From Streptomyces eurythermus (GTDB taxonomy: Bacteria > Actinomycetota > Actinomycetes > Streptomycetales > Streptomycetaceae), in NCBI RefSeq assembly GCF_014649115.1, contig NZ_BMSK01000014.1:62001-126000 (forward strand): a stretch of DNA of 64,000 bases. Reading direction: 5' to 3'. A program made the position numbers and the translations under genes. The notes under the pieces were generated by a model. The model worked only from the letters and a program-made list of their open reading frames with translations, was not told the origin of the DNA and did no database searches. Position 1 is the stretch's first letter. Every line of letters begins with the position of its first letter. Shown here in pieces: positions 3,165 to 37,389 of this stretch.

Positions 3165-3227
3165 GGCGTGAAGTAGCGTGGGACGGGTCGGTGAGAGAGC
3201 AGTGGGAGACGGGGGAGGGGACCGGAG

Positions 3228-3626
3228 ATGACAGGGCAGGACGGCCGGGCCCGGCGGCGCGGCCAGGGCGAACTGGAAGGCCAGGTGCTCGGCGTGCTGC
3301 GCGAGGCGGACGGGCCGGTCAGCGCCGCCTGGGTGCAGCGGCGCCTCGGCGGCGACCTCGCCTACACCACGGTCGTCACCATCCTGACCCGGCTGCTCGC
3401 CAAGGACGTCGTCTCCCGCGAGCGGCACGGCCGGTCCTTCCTGTGGACGCCGACGGCCGACGTCGCCCGGCTCGCCGCCCTGCGCATGCGCCGTCTGCTG
3501 GACGGCGAGCGGGACCGCGAGGCGGTCCTGGCCAGCTTCGTCACCGCCCTGCCGCCCGGCGACGAACAGGTGCTGCGGGCCCTGCTCGACATCCCGGCCC
3601 CGGACGCCGGCCGCCCGGAGGACTGA
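3228..3626 (+). CDS. BlaI/MecI-family winged-helix repressor
   Basis: A 132-residue DNA-binding protein. The winged-helix region runs through residues 13-75: helix ELEGQVLGVLREA, recognition segment YTTVVTILTRLLAKD, then a wing RERHGRSFLWTP. The C-terminal helices (LAALRMRRLLDG and onwards) match the dimerisation part of BlaI/MecI. In the classical systems the repressor is cleaved when a membrane metalloprotease senses a signal. The next gene, 6 bp downstream, is just such a protease. The SD is in GGGGACCGGAG directly before ATG 3228. The controlled genes are not shown by sequence; the nearby ctaG/DUF2243 pair is a guess from context. Confidence 0.9.
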   Translation: MTGQDGRARRRGQGELEGQVLGVLREADGPVSAAWVQRRLGGDLAYTTVVTILTRLLAKDVVSRERHGRSFLWTPTADVARLAALRMRRLLDGERDREAVLASFVTALPPGDEQVLRALLDIPAPDAGRPED

Positions 3627-28725: not shown

Positions 28726-30189
28726 TCACCGGGCGGCGAGCCGTGCCTCGGCCGCCCGCCAGCGGCCGGTGTCACCCCGGGGCGAGTACCGGGTGAGCGG
28801 CTGGGTGCGGGTGAGCAGCCGGCGCAGCGCGGGCAGGTCACCGGCGAGTCCGTGCGCGCGGGCCTGCACCAGCACATTGCCCAGGGCCGCCGCCTCGGTC
28901 GCGCCCGCGACGACCGGCAGCCCGCAGGCGTCGGCCGTCAGCTGGCACAGCAGCGCGTTGCGGGTGCCGCCGCCGACGAGGTACACCACGTCCACCGGAT
29001 GGTCGGCCAGCCGGGCCGCGTCCAGCACCGCCCGCCGGTGGGCGAGGGCCAGCGAGTCCAGGATGCACCGGGTCACCTCGGCCGGGGTCACCGGCACCGG
29101 CTGCCCCGACGCCCGGCACGCTTCCGCGATCCGCTCCGGCATCCGGCCCGGCGCGAGGAACGCCGCGTCCCCGGCGTCCACCACCGAACGCAGCGTCGGC
29201 ACGGCCGCCGCCTGCCGCAGCAGCAGTCCCAAGTCCGGCTCCCCCCAGGTCCGTACGCACTCCTGGAGCAGCCACAGTCCCATGATGTTGCGCAGATAGC
29301 GGACCGTGCCGTCCAGCCCCAGCTCGTTGGTGAAGTTCGCCGCCCGGCTCTCCTCGGTCAGCACCGGCGCGGACAGTTCCAGGCCGGCCAGGGACCAGGT
29401 GCCGGTGCAGATGTAGGCGAACCGCTCACCCGTCGCCGGGACCGCCACCACCGCCGACGCGGTGTCGTGCGAGCCGACCGCCGTCACCGGCACCGGGCCG
29501 CGCAGCCCGGTCTCCGCCAGCACCTCGGGCCGCAGCGCCCCGGCCGGATCGCCCGGCTGCCGCAGCGGCGGGAACAGGGCGAGGTCGATGCCCAGCCGGC
29601 CGGCGACCCCGTGCGCCCAGGTCCGGGTCCGGGGGTCGACGAGCTGGGTGGTGGAGGCGTTGGTCAGCTCGGTGCCCTGCTCGCCGGTGAGCCAGTACGT
29701 CAGCAGGTCCGGGACGAGCAACACCCGTGCCGCGAGCGCGAACCTGGCGGTCGAGCGGTCCGCCGTGAGCTGGTACAGCGTGTTGAACGGCGCGTACTGG
29801 ATGCCGGTCGCCGCGTACAGCTCCGCCGCCGGCACGGTCGCCCACACCTTCTCCGCGACCCCCTCGGTGCGGGCGTCGCGATAGTGGACCGGGTTGCCGA
29901 GCAGCGCCCCCTCGCCGTCCAGCAGGCCGTAGTCGACGGCCCAGCTGTCGATGCCGGCCGAGGCGAGCCGGCCACCGCTGCGGGCGCCCGCCGCCCGCAG
30001 CCCGTCCAGGACACCGCCGTAGAGCGCGAGGATGTCCCAGCGCAGCCCCTCCGGGAGCCGCAGCGGCCGGTTCGGGAACCGGTGCGCCTCGGTCAGCTCC
30101 ACCGAGTCCGGGCCCACCCGGCCCACCATGACCCGCCCGCTGGACGCGCCCAGGTCGACGGCCGCGTACGCCTTCACGCCCGCGCTCAT
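28726..30189 (-). CDS. rhaB: L-rhamnulokinase
   Basis: A 487-residue FGGY-type kinase that phosphorylates L-rhamnulose. The N-terminal phosphate loop AAVDLGASSGRVMVG, the sugar-binding GIDSWAVDYGLLD, VGSHDTASAV and the ATP-site YICTGTWSLAG and VYLVGGGTRNALLCQLTAD are all typical of rhamnulokinases. ATG 30189 overlaps the upstream aldolase/dehydrogenase stop (ATGA). Length is normal for the family. Confidence 0.95.
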   Translation of the reverse strand: MSAGVKAYAAVDLGASSGRVMVGRVGPDSVELTEAHRFPNRPLRLPEGLRWDILALYGGVLDGLRAAGARSGGRLASAGIDSWAVDYGLLDGEGALLGNPVHYRDARTEGVAEKVWATVPAAELYAATGIQYAPFNTLYQLTADRSTARFALAARVLLVPDLLTYWLTGEQGTELTNASTTQLVDPRTRTWAHGVAGRLGIDLALFPPLRQPGDPAGALRPEVLAETGLRGPVPVTAVGSHDTASAVVAVPATGERFAYICTGTWSLAGLELSAPVLTEESRAANFTNELGLDGTVRYLRNIMGLWLLQECVRTWGEPDLGLLLRQAAAVPTLRSVVDAGDAAFLAPGRMPERIAEACRASGQPVPVTPAEVTRCILDSLALAHRRAVLDAARLADHPVDVVYLVGGGTRNALLCQLTADACGLPVVAGATEAAALGNVLVQARAHGLAGDLPALRRLLTRTQPLTRYSPRGDTGRWRAAEARLAAR

Positions 30190-32225
30190 CGCAGGAACGC
30201 GGCCGCCACACCCGCGTCGACCGGGATGTGCAGCCCGGTGGTGTGCGTGAGGTCCCCGCCGGTCAGCGCGAACACCGCGTTCGCCACGTGCTCGGGCAGC
30301 ACCTCGCGCTTGAGCAGGGTCCGCCGCGCGTAGAACTCGCCCAGCTTCTCCTCCGGCACCCCGTACACGGCGGCCCGCTGCGCGCCCCAGCCCCCGGCGA
30401 AGATGCCGGAGCCGCGCACCACACCGTCCGGGTTGACCCCGTTCACACGGATGCCGTGCTCGCCCAACTCGGCCGCGAGCAGCCGCACCTGGTGGGCCTG
30501 GTCGGCCTTGGTGGCGGAGTAGGCGATGTTGTTCGGCCCGGCGAAGACGCCGTTCTTGGAGACGATGTACACGAGATCGCCACCGAGTCCCTGGGCCGTC
30601 ATCACCCGGGCCGCCTCCCGGGACACCAGGAACGAGCCGCGGGCCATGATGTCGTGCTGGAGGTCCCAGTCCCGGGCGGTGGTCTCCAGCAGCGGCTTGG
30701 ACACGGAGATCCCGGCGTTGTTGACGACCAGGTCGACCCCGCCGAACGCGAGCACCGCCGACCGGAACGCGGCGGTGATCTGCTCCTCGGAGGTGACGTC
30801 CACGGTGACGGCGACGGCCTTGTCCGGACCGCCCAGTTCCTCGGCGACCCGCGCCGCGCCCTCGGCGTTCAGGTCGGCGACGACGACACACGCCCCCTCG
30901 GCGGCCAGCCGGTGCGCGATGGCCCTGCCGATCCCGCTGCCCGCCCCCGTGACCAGCGCGACACGGGTGGCGAGCGGCTTGGGCGCGGGCATCCGCCGGA
31001 GCTTGGCCTCCTCCAGCGCCCAGTACTCGATGCGGAACTTCTCCGCTTCCTCGATCGGCGCGTACGACGAGACCGCCTCGGCGCCCCGCATCACGTTGAT
31101 CGCGTTGACGTAGAACTCGCCGGCCACCCGGGCGGTCTGCTTGTCCTTGCCGAAGCTGAACATGCCGACCCCCGGGACCAGCACGACGGCCGGGTCGGCG
31201 CCGCGCATGGCGGGGGAGCCGGGCCGGGCGTGCCGCCGGTAGTAGGCGGCGTACTCCTCCCGGTAGGCGGCGTGCAGTTCCTTCAGCCGGGCGACGGCGT
31301 CCGCCGGCGGCGCCGTGGGCGGCAGGTCCAGCACGAGCGGCCGTACCTTGGTGCGCAGGAAGTGGTCCGGGCAGGAGGTGCCGAGGGCGGCCAGCCGGGG
31401 GTGCCCGGCGCGGGCCAGGAAGTCCAGGACCACGTCGGAGTCGTCGAAGTGCCCCACCTGCGGCCGGTCCTGTGAGGCGAGGCCCCGGACGTACGGCGCG
31501 AGCGCGGCGGCCCGCTCCCGTCGCTCCGCATCGGGCAGCGCCTCGTACCCCGCGACGACCGGCCCGAACGGCTCCGCCCTGCCCCTGTCGGCGAGGAACG
31601 CCTCGGCGGTCCTGATGATGTACAGCGAGTTGCGCTCGCACTCCTCGGACGTCTCGCCCCAGGCGGTGATGCCGTGCCCGCCGAGGACGCAGCCGACGGC
31701 CCGCGGGTTCGCCCGCTTGATCGCGGCGATGTCCAGCCCGAGCTGGAAGCCGGGCCGCCGCCACGGCACCCACACCACGCGGTCCCCGAAACACTCGGCG
31801 GTCAGCTTCTCCCCGTCGGCCGCGCAGGCGAGCGCGATACCGGAGTCCGGGTGCAGATGGTCCACGTGCGCGGCGTCCACCAGGGCGTGCATGGCGGTGT
31901 CGATGGAGGGCGCGGCCCCGCCCCTGCCGTGCAGGCAGTAGTCGAAGGCCCCGACCATCTCGTCCTCGCGCTCCACCCCGGGGTACACCTCCGCCAGGGC
32001 CCGCAACCGGTCCAGCCGCAGCACGGCCAGCCCGGCCCCGGTGAGCGTGCCGAGGTCGCCCCCGGACCCCTTGACCCACATCAGCTCCACCTCACCCCCG
32101 GTCACGGGATCGGTGGCGGTGCCCTTGGCGGAGGCGTTGCCGCCGGCGTAGTTGGTGTTGCGGGGGTCGGAGCCGAGGCGGTGGCAGCGGGAGAGGAGAG
32201 CGTCGACCGAGGGGTGGGTGGTCAT
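30186..32225 (-). CDS. rhaEW: Bifunctional rhamnulose-1-phosphate aldolase / lactaldehyde dehydrogenase
   Basis: A 679-residue fusion. The N-terminal class II aldolase half has the zinc site in HVDHLHPDS and the GGHG loop, and would split rhamnulose-1-phosphate into dihydroxyacetone phosphate and L-lactaldehyde. The C-terminal half (from about 430) is a short-chain dehydrogenase: TGAGSGIGRAIA for NAD, NNAG, and the active site YSATK. It oxidises lactaldehyde to lactate. This fusion is the Bacillus/actinobacterial RhaEW type. It is followed by rhaB in the same operon, and LutABC downstream would take the lactate. Confidence 0.95.
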   Translation of the reverse strand: MTTHPSVDALLSRCHRLGSDPRNTNYAGGNASAKGTATDPVTGGEVELMWVKGSGGDLGTLTGAGLAVLRLDRLRALAEVYPGVEREDEMVGAFDYCLHGRGGAAPSIDTAMHALVDAAHVDHLHPDSGIALACAADGEKLTAECFGDRVVWVPWRRPGFQLGLDIAAIKRANPRAVGCVLGGHGITAWGETSEECERNSLYIIRTAEAFLADRGRAEPFGPVVAGYEALPDAERRERAAALAPYVRGLASQDRPQVGHFDDSDVVLDFLARAGHPRLAALGTSCPDHFLRTKVRPLVLDLPPTAPPADAVARLKELHAAYREEYAAYYRRHARPGSPAMRGADPAVVLVPGVGMFSFGKDKQTARVAGEFYVNAINVMRGAEAVSSYAPIEEAEKFRIEYWALEEAKLRRMPAPKPLATRVALVTGAGSGIGRAIAHRLAAEGACVVVADLNAEGAARVAEELGGPDKAVAVTVDVTSEEQITAAFRSAVLAFGGVDLVVNNAGISVSKPLLETTARDWDLQHDIMARGSFLVSREAARVMTAQGLGGDLVYIVSKNGVFAGPNNIAYSATKADQAHQVRLLAAELGEHGIRVNGVNPDGVVRGSGIFAGGWGAQRAAVYGVPEEKLGEFYARRTLLKREVLPEHVANAVFALTGGDLTHTTGLHIPVDAGVAAAFLR

Positions 32226-32334: not shown

Positions 32335-33495
32335 TCACGCCCCCCAGCCGGCCTGCTCCCCGCCGACCCGCTCGGCGACGATCTTCTCGGCCCACCCGGA
32401 CCGGGCGTACGCGGCCATCGGGTCGGGGTCCACCCCCATCTCCTCCCGGATCTCCCGGAGCAACGGCCGCACATCCGTGCCGTACGCGTCCATCAGCACG
32501 GCGTTGGCCCCGAGCACGTCCCCCGAAGCCTGCGCCTCGGCCAACGCGTCCCTGTCGACCAGCAGCGCCTTGGCCGTGGCCTCCTGGACGTTCATCACGG
32601 AGCGGATGATCGCCGGGATCTTCGGCTCGATGTTGTGGCACTGGTCGAGCATGAACGCGACCTCGGAGGTGAATCCCCCGCCGCGCACCACCTCGTACAT
32701 GATCCGGAACAGCTGGAAGGGATCCGCCGCCCCCGCCATCAGGTCGTCGTCGGCGTAGAACCGCGAGTTGAAGTCGAACCCGCCGAGCTTGCCCTCCCGC
32801 AGCAGCGTGGCGACGATGAACTCGATGTTGGTGCCGGGCGCGTGGTGCCCGGTGTCCACCACCACCCGCGCCTTGTCGCCGAGTCTGAGGCAGTGCGCGT
32901 AGGCGGTCCCCCAGTCCGGCACGTCCGTGGTGTAGAACGCCGGCTCGAAGAGCTTGTACTCCAGCAGCATCCGCTGCCCCTCACCGAGCCGCGCGTACAC
33001 CTCGGCCAGCCCCTCGGCCAGCCGGTCCTGGCGGGCGCGCACATCGTCCTGCCCGGGGTAGTTGGTGCCGTCCGCGAACCACAGCTTCAGATCGCGGGAC
33101 CCGGTCGCGTCCATGATGTCGACGCAGCGCAGCAGGTGGGCCACGGCCTTGCGCCGTACCGCCGCGTCCGGGTGACAGATGCTGCCCAGCTTGTAGGCGT
33201 CGTCCTGGAAGGTGTTGGAGTTGATCGTGCCCAGCCGCACCCCCCGCTCCTCGGCGTACTTCGCGAGCGCGGCGTAGTCCTCCACGGTGTCCCAGGGGAT
33301 GTGCAGGGCGACCGACGGCGCGACCCCGGTGAACTCGTGCACCCGCGCCGCGTCCTGGAGCTTCTCCCACGGCGAGCGCGGCACCCCGGCCTGCGCGAAC
33401 ACCTTGAACCGGGTGCCCGAGTTCCCGTACGCCCACGACGGCGTCTCGACGGCCTGGGTCTTGAGCGCGGCCTTCACCGCGGCGAGGTCGGTCAC
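32335..33495 (-). CDS. rhaI: L-rhamnose isomerase (TIM-barrel type)
   Basis: A 386-residue isomerase that converts L-rhamnose to L-rhamnulose. The TIM-barrel pattern of the xylose-isomerase superfamily is seen in ALHIPWDT, TINSNTFQDDAYKLGS, KLWFADGTNYPGQDD, VVVDTGHHAPGTNIEF, FDFNSRFYADDDLM and FMLDQCHNIEPK; the Asp, Glu and His residues of these blocks form the two-metal site. It starts the minus-strand operon: canonical promoter and an operator are directly upstream (33540-33587). Next genes are RhaEW, RhaB and then LutABC. Confidence 0.95.
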   Translation of the reverse strand: MTDLAAVKAALKTQAVETPSWAYGNSGTRFKVFAQAGVPRSPWEKLQDAARVHEFTGVAPSVALHIPWDTVEDYAALAKYAEERGVRLGTINSNTFQDDAYKLGSICHPDAAVRRKAVAHLLRCVDIMDATGSRDLKLWFADGTNYPGQDDVRARQDRLAEGLAEVYARLGEGQRMLLEYKLFEPAFYTTDVPDWGTAYAHCLRLGDKARVVVDTGHHAPGTNIEFIVATLLREGKLGGFDFNSRFYADDDLMAGAADPFQLFRIMYEVVRGGGFTSEVAFMLDQCHNIEPKIPAIIRSVMNVQEATAKALLVDRDALAEAQASGDVLGANAVLMDAYGTDVRPLLREIREEMGVDPDPMAAYARSGWAEKIVAERVGGEQAGWGA

Positions 33496-33661: not shown

Positions 33662-33691
33662 TTGACGTGACATGGTCACGGTGCCTACGGT
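33662..33691 (+). promoter_or_regulatory. Promoter of the plus-strand rhamnose transport operon
   Basis: TTGACG (33662-33667), an 18-bp spacer, then TACGGT (33686-33691). The operator at 33706 sits just after the expected start point. Confidence 0.65.
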
Positions 33692-33705
33692 CCCGGCAAT
33701 CCACT

Positions 33706-33717
33706 TGAAACCTTTCA
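33706..33717. promoter_or_regulatory. LacI-type operator of the transport operon
   Basis: TGAAACCTTTCA is the perfect palindrome TGAAA-CC-TTTCA, related to the site before rhaI. Regulation of this half seems intact even though the transporter genes are broken. Confidence 0.7.
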
Positions 33718-33770
33718 CGACATCGCGGGCGCCCCGACGGCCCCCACGCCAGTGTCGTCGAGGAGCCCCC

Positions 33771-34392
33771 ATGACCCGACCGCCCGACCCGGGACCGGTC
33801 CCGGTGCCGAAGGGCGTCCCCAAGTCCTTCGGCGCCGTACGCGCCCTGCGGGACGTCTCCCTGGAGCTGCGGCCCGGTGAGGTGCACGCCCTGGCCGGCG
33901 AGAACGGCGCGGGCCGGTCGACGCTGATCAAGACCCTCGCCGGGGTGCACCGCCCGGACACCGGACAGGTGCTGCTCGACGGCGCGCCCGTCGTCTCCCC
34001 CGGCCCCTGCGACGCCCGGGCCGCCGGCATCGCCGTCATCCGCCAGGAACCCACCCTGTTCCCGGACCTGTCGATCGCCGGAAACGTCTTCATGGGCCGC
34101 GGACCCACACGTTCCCCCGGCCGGACCGACCACAAGGCCGCCCGCGAGGCGACGGCCGCGCTGATGCGGCGGCTCGGTGTCGCCCTCGACCCCGAGCGGC
34201 CCGCGCGCGGACTGTCCATCGCCGGCCAGCAGTCGGGAGAGATCGCCAAGGCACTCTCCCCCGACGTCCGGGTCCTGATCACGGAGGAGCCGACCGCCGC
34301 GCTCACCGGCAGCGAGGTCGCCCGGCTCTTCGGCGTCGTGCGCACCCCGCGCGAGCAGGGCGCCGCCATGCTGTTCGTCTCCCACCGGCTTC
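33771..34392 (+). pseudogene. Rhamnose ABC importer ATPase, truncated N-terminal half
   Basis: From ATG 33771 (SD GAGGAGC) the first ATPase domain of a two-domain sugar ABC ATPase (about 500 residues in full) can be followed for about 208 residues to LFVSHRL, the H-loop. It then breaks off at about 34387-34396. Key residues are eroded: Walker A reads GENGAGRST (Lys to Arg), the Q-loop RQEPTLF, the signature SIAGQQSGEIAKAL, and Walker B LITEEPTAAL where MDEP is normal. After the break the frame runs through the remnant of the binding-protein gene out of frame and into rhaM in frame, so the longest reading would be a 397-residue chimera. Not functional as an ATPase. Confidence 0.85.
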
Positions 34393-34623
34393 AGGTACGT
34401 CGAGAACGGAACCGTCGAGGCCTTCGCGCTGTGGGACCCGGCCAGGCTCGGCGCGCTCGCGGCCCGCACCGCCGTCGCGCCGGCCTCCGGACAGATCAGC
34501 GGCAGGCGGGGCGAGACCTTCCGGCCCGGCGGGACGACGTACACCCTGGGCGACAACCGCGTGATCGACCTGGGCGAGCCGACCGTGTTCGACGCCCGCA
34601 CCATCGACCGGTACCACTTCCGA
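34387..34623 (+). pseudogene. C-terminal remnant of the rhamnose-binding protein (RhaS)
   Basis: In the +1 frame relative to the ATPase, bases 34393-34620 encode RYVENGTVEAFALWDPARLG, then LAARTAV, GQISGRRGETF, GTTYTLG and VFDARTIDRYHF. This is the normal C-terminal end of a RhaS-type sugar-binding protein, whose last residues are YHF or similar. The expected stop codon after YHF now reads CGA, a likely TGA-to-CGA change, so the frame continues to 34665. No signal peptide or N-terminal lobe is present. Confidence 0.8.
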
Positions 34624-34640
34624 GAGAACGGGGGCTGTTC

Positions 34641-34961
34641 ATGCGGCGCGTGTGCTTCCTGCTGAAGGTCAGGGCGGACCGGCTCGAGGAGTACCGGGCG
34701 CGGCACGCGGCCGTCTGGCCGGAGATGCTCGACGCCCTGAAGGCGGCCGGCTGGCACAACTACTCGCTGTTCCTGCGTGAGGACGGCCTGCTCGTCGGCT
34801 ATCTGGAGACCGAGGACTTCGCCGCCGCCCGGGCGCGGATGGCCGCCACGGAGGTCAACGCCCGCTGGCAGCGGGAGATGGCACCCTTCTTCGAGTCGCC
34901 GGACGGCGCCCGGCCCGACGAGGCCATGCGGCCGCTCGCCGAGGTGTTCCACCTCGCCTGA
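34641..34961 (+). CDS. rhaM: L-rhamnose mutarotase
   Basis: A 106-residue mutarotase that equilibrates the anomers of L-rhamnose for the isomerase. Recognisable segments are LLKVRADRLEEYRARHAAVWPEML (with the catalytic His), WHNYSLFLREDGLLVGYLE and WQREMAPFF. Length matches RhaM (about 104). ATG 34641 follows GGGGGC, an ordinary SD distance. It is intact although the upstream transporter genes are destroyed, and is in frame with the ATPase fragment. Expression would depend on the 33662 promoter. Confidence 0.93.
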   Translation: MRRVCFLLKVRADRLEEYRARHAAVWPEMLDALKAAGWHNYSLFLREDGLLVGYLETEDFAAARARMAATEVNARWQREMAPFFESPDGARPDEAMRPLAEVFHLA

Positions 34962-34977: not shown

Positions 34978-36315
34978 ATGAGACCCTCGCTGACCGGTCC
35001 GGCCCGCACCCGGCTGGACGCCCGCGCCCTGTACTTCGTCTCCTACGACGGTCTGGTCAACACCAACTCCTTCCAGAAGCACGGCCTGTTGACCCACGGC
35101 GGTCACCAGTACGCCGTCTGGTACACGGCGAGCCGCGAGGCGGTCGTGGCCCGCCGCGGGCTCGGCACCACCACGTGGTCGGCCGTCACCCTGCCCCACC
35201 GGCTGAAGGCCGACGACTCCCACAACGTCATCTGCGTGGGCGTCTCCCCGGCGGACGGCCGCCTGCACCTGAACCTCGACTCCCACAGCGACGGCTTCCA
35301 CTACATCAAGTCCGTCGCCGGACTCCTGGACGACCCCTCCGGCACCGCCTGGGGCCCGTCCGCCTTCGGACCCGTACAGACCACCCTGGACGGTCTGCCG
35401 CTCACCGGGCGCTTCACCTATCCGCAGTTCCTCACCACCCCCGAGGGCCGGCTCCAGTTGGCCTACCGGTCCGGCGTCTCCGGCAACGGCCGCAACGCCC
35501 TCGCGGAGTACGACGGTTGCCGGTGGACCGCGCTGGGGGAGTGGTCCGGCGCCACCGGCACGTACACCAGCGCGCACGGCTCCAGCACCGCCCGCAACAT
35601 GTACCTGCACGGCCTCGACTACGACCGGCGCGGCCGGCTGCACGTCCTGTTCACCTGGCGGGAGCGGGACCCGGCCGTCCTCGCCGACGGCGGCGGACTG
35701 ACCAACCACGACACCGGCTACGTCACATCCGACGACCGCGGCCGGACCTGGCGCAACGACGCGGGCGCCGTGGTGGGCACCACCGGCGGGCCGGACCGGG
35801 TCCGCGTCACCGACGCCGGCCTGGTCGTCGACCCGCTGGGCCCGGACCACTGCCTGATGAACCAGGAGAGCCAGTGCGCCGACTCGGCCGGCCGGCCGCA
35901 CGCGATCGTCAGCCACCTCCCCGTCCGCCTCGGCCCGCCGGCCGGCGGCTACGCCGCGGCCCGCGCCGCCCACGCCCGCGCCCACCATCTGCGCAAGACC
36001 GGCTCCGGCACCTGGCTGAAGACCGAGATCCCCGTCCCGCTCCGCTCCAGCCAGCGCACCAGGCTGGTCCTGGACCGCCATGACAACGCCTACGCCGTGC
36101 TGCCCTACGGCCGGATCGCCGCCGCCTCCGCGGGCAGTGGGTACACCGACTGGGCGCTGCTGTTCGACGGCGCCGGGCTGAACGCGTTCGGCGAGGTCGT
36201 GGTGGACGAGACCCGCATCCGGGCGGACGACGTGCTGTCGTTCATGTACCAGGAGAAGTCCGCCGGTACGACGCCCTCGCCGCTGTACGTGGCCGACTTC
36301 GCCCTGCCGGCGTGA
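34978..36315 (+). CDS. BNR_4-type beta-propeller protein
   Basis: A 445-residue protein that resembles BNR_4 family propellers. Seven-bladed repeats can be followed: FVSYDGLVNTNSFQKHGLL, HGGHQYAVWYTA, DDSHNVICVGVSPADGRLHL, TYPQFLTTPEGRLQLAYRSG, YLHGLDYDRRGRLHVLFTW, HDTGYVTSDDRGRTW. Family members include lyases that act on rhamnose-uronic acid polymers such as ulvan. No signal peptide is visible, so it would work inside the cell, perhaps on imported oligosaccharides. It lies 16 bp after rhaM in the same operon. The catalytic residues cannot be assigned safely. Confidence 0.8.
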   Translation: MRPSLTGPARTRLDARALYFVSYDGLVNTNSFQKHGLLTHGGHQYAVWYTASREAVVARRGLGTTTWSAVTLPHRLKADDSHNVICVGVSPADGRLHLNLDSHSDGFHYIKSVAGLLDDPSGTAWGPSAFGPVQTTLDGLPLTGRFTYPQFLTTPEGRLQLAYRSGVSGNGRNALAEYDGCRWTALGEWSGATGTYTSAHGSSTARNMYLHGLDYDRRGRLHVLFTWRERDPAVLADGGGLTNHDTGYVTSDDRGRTWRNDAGAVVGTTGGPDRVRVTDAGLVVDPLGPDHCLMNQESQCADSAGRPHAIVSHLPVRLGPPAGGYAAARAAHARAHHLRKTGSGTWLKTEIPVPLRSSQRTRLVLDRHDNAYAVLPYGRIAAASAGSGYTDWALLFDGAGLNAFGEVVVDETRIRADDVLSFMYQEKSAGTTPSPLYVADFALPA

Positions 36316-36369: not shown

Positions 36370-37389
36370 ATGGCCCAGTCGGTGGGTATCAAGGACGTCG
36401 CCCGCGCCGCCGGAGTGTCGGTGGGCACGGTGTCCAATGTCATCAACCGCCCGGACACCGTCGCCGGCGAGACCCGGGCCCGGGTGCTGTCCGCGATCGA
36501 CCGGCTCGGTTACGTCCGCAGCGAGTCGGCGCGCCAGCTGCGGGCGGGCCGCAGCCGGATCATGGGGCTGCTCGTGCTCGACATGGGCAACCCGTTCTTC
36601 GTGGACGTGGCCCGCGGCGCCGAACGGGCCGCCCGGGACGCCGGGCTGGGCGTGATGGTGTGCAACAGCGCCCAGGACGCGGCCGAGGAGGCCGAGTACC
36701 TCTCGCTCTTCGCCGAACAGCGGGTGCGGGGAGTGCTGCTCACCCCGGCCGACGCCACCGGCCGCAACATCGCCGCCTTCCGCCGGCACGGCATCCCGTT
36801 CGTGCTGGTCGACCGGGTCGCCGAGGGCACCACCGAGTGCTCGGTGTCGGTGGACGACGTCGCGGGCGGCGCGCTCGCGGTGCGCCACCTGGTGGACGCC
36901 GGGCACCGCTCCATCGCCTACGTCAGCGGGCCGGGCGGGCTCAACCAGGTCCGCGACCGGCGCACCGGCGCGCTGTCCGCCCTCGCCGAGGCCGGACTCG
37001 GTCCCGAGGCGCTGCGCGAACTGCCCACCGAACGCCTCGACGTGGCCGCGGGCCGGGACGCGGGCGCCCGTCTGCTCGGCCTCGCCGACCGTCCCACCGC
37101 CGTCTTCTGCGCCAACGACCTGCTCGCCCTCGGCCTGCTCCAGGCCATGTACGCGGCGGGCGTCACCGTCCCCGACGACCTGGCGATCGTCGGCTACGAC
37201 GACATCGAGTTCGCCGCCGCGGCGGCCGTCCCGCTCACCTCCGTACGCCAGCCCGCCGTCACCCTGGGCGCCCTCGCCGCCGAACTGCTGCTGGAGGAGA
37301 CCGAGCGGGGCGAGCGGCCCCACGAGCACCGCCGGGTGGTGCTCCAGCCGGAGCTGGTGGTGCGCCGCTCCAGCCTGGTCGCGCGCTGA
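36370..37389 (+). CDS. rhaR: LacI-family regulator, probable rhamnose regulator
   Basis: A 339-residue repressor. The N-terminal HTH is GIKDVARAAGVSVGTVSNVINRPD with hinge RSESARQLRAGRS; the periplasmic-binding-like effector domain follows (GLLVLDMGNPFF; VLVDRVAEG; FCANDLLALGLLQAM; VGYDDIEFAAAAAVPLTSVRQP). The position inside the rha block and the two TGAAA-type palindromes in the divergent promoter (33540 and 33706) make rhamnose or a phosphorylated intermediate the likely inducer. ATG 36370 has the SD GGAGGT 10 nt upstream. Confidence 0.9.
   Translation: MAQSVGIKDVARAAGVSVGTVSNVINRPDTVAGETRARVLSAIDRLGYVRSESARQLRAGRSRIMGLLVLDMGNPFFVDVARGAERAARDAGLGVMVCNSAQDAAEEAEYLSLFAEQRVRGVLLTPADATGRNIAAFRRHGIPFVLVDRVAEGTTECSVSVDDVAGGALAVRHLVDAGHRSIAYVSGPGGLNQVRDRRTGALSALAEAGLGPEALRELPTERLDVAAGRDAGARLLGLADRPTAVFCANDLLALGLLQAMYAAGVTVPDDLAIVGYDDIEFAAAAAVPLTSVRQPAVTLGALAAELLLEETERGERPHEHRRVVLQPELVVRRSSLVAR

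Follow-up and report, generated by a model that had tools for sequence, protein, structure and literature searches.

An ABC importer for rhamnose, RhaSTPQ, is described in Rhizobium leguminosarum, where it lies beside the genes for rhamnose isomerase and mutarotase and is named RhaFGHJ in PMC3870299. For the Actinomycetales, the same source gives alternatives, namely, RhaY, a putative rhamnose permease of the MFS type in some members, and the rhiLFG oligosaccharide importers. We analyzed a 64,000-nucleotide stretch of Streptomyces eurythermus DNA (here called the window), which comprises bases 62001 to 126000 of a 293,855-bp contig in a 9.17-Mb draft genome of 70 contigs. It contains the same kind of importer locus, again beside the isomerase and mutarotase genes. 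However, compared with the R. leguminosarum system, the window retains only 206 codons of the ATPase and approximately 78 codons of the binding protein RhaS, both of them decayed. We read the feature as the relic of the rhamnose ABC importer RhaFGHJ, also called RhaSTPQ.

As the best explanation of this relic, in which we have high although not complete confidence, an importer that was already damaged would have been cut by one deletion of about 3.9 kb, with the enzymes kept and with such losses repeated in the genus. A single pseudogene is ordinary; the points of interest are the recurrence and the GC-ward decay.

A deletion scar in the rhamnose locus

Three complete catabolic genes lie on the minus strand of the window. 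They are rhaB (28726 to 30189), encoding a 487-aa rhamnulokinase with its start located (TIGR02627, E 5e-137); rhaEW (30186 to 32225), encoding a 679-aa bifunctional rhamnulose-1-phosphate aldolase/dehydrogenase (TIGR02632, 1105 bits); and rhaI (32335 to 33495), encoding a 386-aa L-rhamnose isomerase (TIGR02635, 664 bits). RhaEW and RhaI are both over the curated cut-offs, and RhaB is under its own. On the plus strand follow the decayed importer ATPase (33771 to 34390; alignments and Pfam ABC_tran), represented by its first 206 codons up to the H-loop; a single junction base at 34391; the RhaS relic (34392 to 34640), which holds approximately 78 codons from the 3′ end of the gene, in a frame other than that of the ATPase relic; and a complete rhaM (34641 to 34961), encoding L-rhamnose mutarotase, in frame with the ATPase relic. 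The rhaM product matched PF05336 over the Pfam cut-off and TIGR02625 under the NCBIfam cut-off. Further downstream on the same strand are an accessory gene of the locus for a BNR_4 family protein (34978 to 36315; PF15892, E 1e-77) and a conserved gene identified by family match as a LacI-family regulator (36370 to 37389), which is possibly the rha repressor.

The scar was delimited by comparison with 16 close relatives taken from the top of the homologue list (loci L038 to L053). Each of the 16 carries an ATPase gene, a pair of permease genes, and rhaS, whole or for the greater part, and in all of them the gene order, with rhaI on the opposite strand followed by ATPase, permease, permease, and RhaS, is complete; the RhaS of one of them, L038, passes TIGR02637. 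In blastn alignments with each of the 16, the window fell into two blocks, the first ending at 34390 and the second starting at 34392 to 34396. Between these two points, the relatives hold 3,810 to 3,912 bp encoding what the window lacks: the remainder of the ATPase, both permeases, and the greater part of RhaS. No complete set of an ATPase with two NBDs, two permeases, and RhaS is present at the window locus. The ATPase relic terminates in an SHRL motif, base 34391 is a T that fits neither flank, and no microhomology was seen at the junction.

These comparisons bear out much of the original prediction, which had described an ATPase fragment running at its H-loop into the out-of-frame C-terminal end of RhaS, the order of ATPase, permeases, and binding protein in related clusters, the removal of everything between by one deletion, and intact genes for catabolism. 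The last of these was seen in the complete reading frames of rhaB, rhaEW, rhaI, and rhaM. Taken together, sequence comparison supports an importer that was cut by one deletion of about 3.9 kb, with its catabolic genes predicted to be intact.

Integrity of the assembly and search for a spare copy

A draft genome in 70 contigs leaves room for an assembly artefact, in which assembly would have collapsed 3.9 kb of an importer that is in fact complete. We consider this very improbable, since the junction lies far inside its 293,855-bp contig, away from the contig ends; the flanking pieces carry the substitutions of a dead gene, including K49R and a lost stop codon (see below); when the missing segment is compared with the remainder of the assembly, the top match by both length and score has only 71% identity; and a close relative, G102, has a scar of its own.

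A full RhaS was not found elsewhere in this draft genome with either the RhaS protein or the RhaS family model, and no match passed the RhaS cut-off. These two queries and the DNA of the missing segment matched only distant sugar-importer paralogues and the relic itself, and the second permease gave no match at E 1e-40 in the same draft genome. The cell would therefore be unable to use this importer. The possibility that the importer had moved elsewhere in the genome was rejected, as the best paralogous block is a ribose operon by its gene layout (LacI regulator, ATPase, permease-binding protein fusion, and ribokinase-like gene).

Decay of the importer remnants

At residues invariant over the 16 relatives, 22 of 172 were altered in the ATPase relic, whereas the same count for each relative, left out in turn, gave 0 to 4, and rhaI of the window had 2 of 284 altered. 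Lineage pN/pS was 0.73 for the ATPase piece and for the RhaS piece alike, compared with 0.08 for rhaI, 0.05 for lacI, and 0.25 for rhaM next to them, and with 0.00 to 0.32 for the same genes on four other branches. The changes in the ATPase relic include K49R (AAG>CGG), which removes the Walker A lysine; Y91R; M171T and D172E in Walker B; and a 6-nt in-frame gap near codons 12 and 13. The former RhaS stop at 34621 to 34623 now reads CGA. The predicted exchange of the Walker A lysine for arginine and the predicted loss of the RhaS stop were both recovered in the alignments, but the proposed change of Walker B from MDEP to TEEP needs a correction, in that only the Met and the Asp are altered and the catalytic Glu is kept. 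By these measures, the relic appears dead and its remnants appear to evolve without protein constraint, and rhaI and rhaM seem to stay under purifying selection while the importer decays.

No stop interrupts the ATPase frame as it crosses the out-of-frame RhaS piece and continues in phase into rhaM (ORF 33672 to 34961, 429 aa), so that a gene caller may report an ATPase-RhaM fusion. It is exceedingly improbable that this open, in-phase frame encodes a new functional protein, as its ATPase part is under relaxed constraint and has the Walker A lysine changed, its middle stretch is out-of-frame RhaS, and the corresponding frame in the G102 relic hits a stop after the RhaS piece and is out of phase with rhaM. 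Open alternative frames are common at such a GC content, and we take this one for a product of chance in GC-rich DNA.

A second scar and the order of events

The closest relative found via RhaI, G102 (97% identical), has a scar at the same locus (L130) with rhaI and rhaM likewise kept; it lies on an 8,963-bp contig of an assembly that is 95% complete and has 1,420 contigs. Its breakpoints differ from those of the window: the ATPase up to about residue 85 is joined to residue 219 of RhaS, with approximately 8 bp of microhomology. ATPase residues 86 to 206 are kept in the window and absent in G102, while RhaS residues 219 to 280 are kept in G102 and absent in the window. Since each keeps a part that the other lost, the two deletions are not nested, and neither descends from the other. 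Two substitutions are nonetheless common to both scars: A>G at 33916, which turns the Walker A lysine into arginine, and T>C at 34621, which abolishes the RhaS stop. Lesions common to two different, non-nested deletions place the damage before both, so the importer was probably damaged before either deletion, unless the lesions arose twice. Changes on the branch shared by the window and G102 number 27 over 222 scored sites in the RhaS piece and 5 over 236 in the ATPase 5′ piece; RhaS is also more divergent in amino acid sequence among the intact relatives. This early damage perhaps began in RhaS first.

The original account had implied that decay followed the deletion, which the lesions shared by G102 despite its own non-nested deletion contradict. 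Its picture of a single event holds for the deletion but fails for the sequence in which decay set in. Nor is the junction common to sister strains as far as they were sampled: G102 does not have it, none of the relative loci compared for this purpose spans it, and among the other genomes of two homology searches (391 in the first), the best match listed, of 877 bits, ends at the junction.

Sequence comparison supports a course of events in which the common ancestor with G102 had already lost the Walker A lysine and the RhaS stop, with RhaS diverging fast. In the window lineage, one deletion of about 3.9 kb then took out both permeases together with the remaining ATPase and the greater part of RhaS. 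The catabolic genes stayed under purifying selection, as measured on rhaI and rhaM. Given the lack of microhomology and the one odd base, the break was probably joined without a template. Ku/LigD end-joining, which is known from Streptomyces, would give such template-free joining.

Importer loss across Streptomyces

We surveyed RhaI in 200 genomes of the genus, for which a minimum completeness of 95 was asked, and found it at E 1e-150 in 130. By RhaI position, we fetched 126 loci, including three second copies; adding the window and six of the initial 16 relatives gives the full set. A complete importer block was present in 75 of the 126 fetched loci. The 51 without it comprise three clear relics (G102, G146, and G117), one locus cut by a contig end (L255), one with a partly matched ATPase (L228), 13 in which the importer lies further away and is partly cut by the fetched stretch, 10 in which rhaI adjoins rhaM with nothing between, and 23 with neither importer nor rhaM near. 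Six genomes in which rhaI adjoins rhaM (G185, G156, G037, G120, G002, and G073) were rejected as losses, as their importer is elsewhere.

RhaS was found anywhere in the genome at E 1e-60, a threshold that differs in strictness from that for RhaI, in 118 of 200 genomes, with at most 10 candidates scored per genome. On these terms, RhaI occurred without a full RhaS in 17 of 130 genomes (15 without RhaS, and G117 and G146 with fragments only), and the reverse case, RhaS without RhaI, in 3 of 118. For 8 of the 17, all candidates were scored (G000, G102, G146, G117, G101, G174, G015, and G043), and for 9 of the 17, absence was called by the scoring of at most 10 candidates alone (G004, G006, G019, G042, G056, G070, G086, G113, and G134). 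On a RhaI gene tree of 145 tips, the importer state must change 15 times to account for the 19 importerless tips, which are the 17 genomes plus two named strains whose state was judged from the locus alone. Horizontal transfer could distort this count; since the RhaI type of G056 and G019 is that of the second copy in G115 and G202, 13 changes is the safer figure. In importerless genomes without a relic, absence is not proof of loss.

A public scan keyed on the relic, covering 61 loci, yielded two further scars, in S. flavidovirens DSM 40150 and S. altiplanensis HST21, bringing the scars to six with six distinct junctions (the window, G102, G146, G117, and these two strains). The loci of S. 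flaveolus NRRL B-1589 and S. sp. Ru62 have all importer genes complete. The five other internal deletions (L077, L101, L130, L131, and L159) all keep rhaI, and all except L159 keep rhaM. In S. flavidovirens (L077), the ATPase breaks off shortly after the H-loop and continues into the 3′ part of RhaS, and, like in the window, rhaI and rhaM are kept. Unlike in the window, its Walker motifs are intact and its breakpoints are other ones; with the motifs intact, this scar is probably younger. The six molecularly distinct junctions are the firm core of the recurrence claim, and, as read from these genomes, repeated loss of the importer, with retention of the enzymes, appears to have occurred in Streptomyces. 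We found no description of this loss in the titles and abstract openings of one literature collection.

The 5′ breakpoints of five of the six scars lie at L038 coordinates 2827 to 2845 and 3215 to 3234. They thus cluster in two spots, 4 pairs lying no more than 20 bp apart (for a uniform distribution, P is 0.001 across the ATPase gene and 0.011 across its first 710 bp, in a test that was chosen after the data were seen and so gives only a lead); the 3′ breakpoints of the six scars show no clustering. The two spots are possibly fragile sites.

GC-ward drift of the relics

Changes in the relics (33771 to 34640 and L130) were polarized by 14 relatives and assigned by parsimony to three branches; as 34019 to 34390 is absent in G102, the window branch there includes the shared branch. 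AT>GC changes occurred at 82 of 473 AT site-branches and GC>AT changes at 23 of 1,233, giving an equilibrium GC of 0.903 (bootstrap 0.860 to 0.941); third-position GC of the neighboring genes is 0.956 to 0.974. At sites where all relatives agree, the counts were 53 of 383 and 16 of 908. The GC>AT rate was equal at codon positions 1 and 2 (13/711) and position 3 (10/522), as dead DNA predicts. In the functional control rhaI, on the same branches, AT>GC changes were found at 17 of 978 and GC>AT changes at 16 of 2,058, so that the per-site ratio of the two is about 2 in rhaI versus 9 in the relic. Among the other relics, that of G117 was GC biased (10 of 291 AT sites and 1 of 585 GC sites), and that of G146 showed no GC bias (7 of 202 and 13 of 396); both look young, so their counts include changes from the functional period.

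As a standard for mutation, we used the mutation-accumulation spectra of S. ambofaciens, wild-type and without NucS, in Table 2 of PMC11109965, from which we computed, at 72% GC, mutational equilibria of 0.62 and 0.80 GC, respectively. An equilibrium GC below 0.5 is given for five clonal pathogen lineages in PMC2936535. Against the tabulated spectrum without NucS, the pooled relic spectrum was higher (p 1e-4), and the window branch alone was not (p 0.35). We rejected a mutator history as the source of the GC-ward changes, since all 6 genomes checked, including this genome and G102, have a NucS_C match. The excess over the wild-type mutation spectrum points to fixation bias as what the relic drift may reflect, for one locus, under parsimony, and with one related species as the mutation standard. 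The relics are close to neutral, their ancestors can be reconstructed, and the genus is very rich in GC; they bear on the old question of whether mutation or fixation is the source of high GC.

Possible causes of the repeated loss

One explanation of the recurrence is adaptive, in that the importer is a liability, as an entry for toxic sugar analogues or antibiotics or as a pump that is wasteful in the niche, and was repeatedly removed by selection while the enzymes keep a job. The six junctions, the 15 changes on the RhaI tree, the excess of enzymes without a full RhaS (17/130) over RhaS without RhaI (3/118), and the continued constraint on rhaI would all agree with it. However, simple dispensability combined with ordinary deletion yields the same pattern, and the survey covers the rhamnose importer alone, at a rate of loss that may be a usual one. 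Moreover, 5 of the 16 relatives have a truncated or absent BNR gene, rhaM, or both, which suggests that the whole accessory part of the locus is deletion prone and that deletion here perhaps does not single out the importer. We regard adaptive loss as unlikely. The five relatives are L038, L040, L044, L046, and L048; each lacks part or all of the BNR_4 gene located between rhaM and lacI, and L040, whose importer is complete, has no rhaM either.

That the whole pathway is decaying, with the enzymes merely lagging, seems to us quite unlikely. A GH78 rhamnosidase was found in 1 of 8 importerless genomes versus 6 of 8 with the importer (Fisher p 0.04), and this scarcity would also fit a pathway on its way out. 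On the other hand, the enzymes are complete, and the 2 of 284 invariant residues changed in rhaI stand against 22 of 172 in the ATPase relic. The lone GH78 match among the eight importerless genomes, in G146 (C25, 34790 to 35919), is split between two neighboring open frames and may thus be a broken gene as well.

Repeated deletion, with the enzymes kept, is our preferred reading. Beyond it, we would entertain only tentatively, and on balance doubt, the broader proposal that the importer is costly or dangerous and so was repeatedly discarded, with the enzymes serving sugar that arrives otherwise and with a GC-ward fixation bias in the relics. If this were true, the importer would be a port of entry and the enzymes would be under selection, and the dead copies would record a GC drive with a neutral equilibrium of about 0.90, in excess of the wild-type mutation spectrum as measured, e.g., GC-biased gene conversion acting on nonfunctional DNA. 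Parallel loss of a pump with persisting enzymes makes both the source of the sugar and selection against the pump testable.

Candidate routes of rhamnose

The constraint on rhaI along the very branch on which the importer decayed suggests that the enzymes still work on something, and their retention suggests that rhamnose probably enters otherwise or arises inside the cell. Their substrate would then be either sugar set free within the cell or sugar taken up by another transporter, e.g., a RhaY-like MFS permease or a promiscuous importer of sugars. RhaY, as given in PMC3870299, is a candidate substitute uptake route for importerless strains.

By gene layout, no recurrent substitute transporter was found beside rhaI in 11 importerless loci; apart from L234, these showed no sugar transporter, whether on visual inspection or among the neighbors examined with Pfam. 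Eight neighbors examined with Pfam included one MFS sugar porter (L234) and one weak DctM match (L224), the rest being nontransporters. The porter (L234, 892 to 2283; PF00083), from the importerless genome G086, lies approximately 5 kb from rhaI and near a LacI-type gene, and it is a candidate for a RhaY-like substitute.
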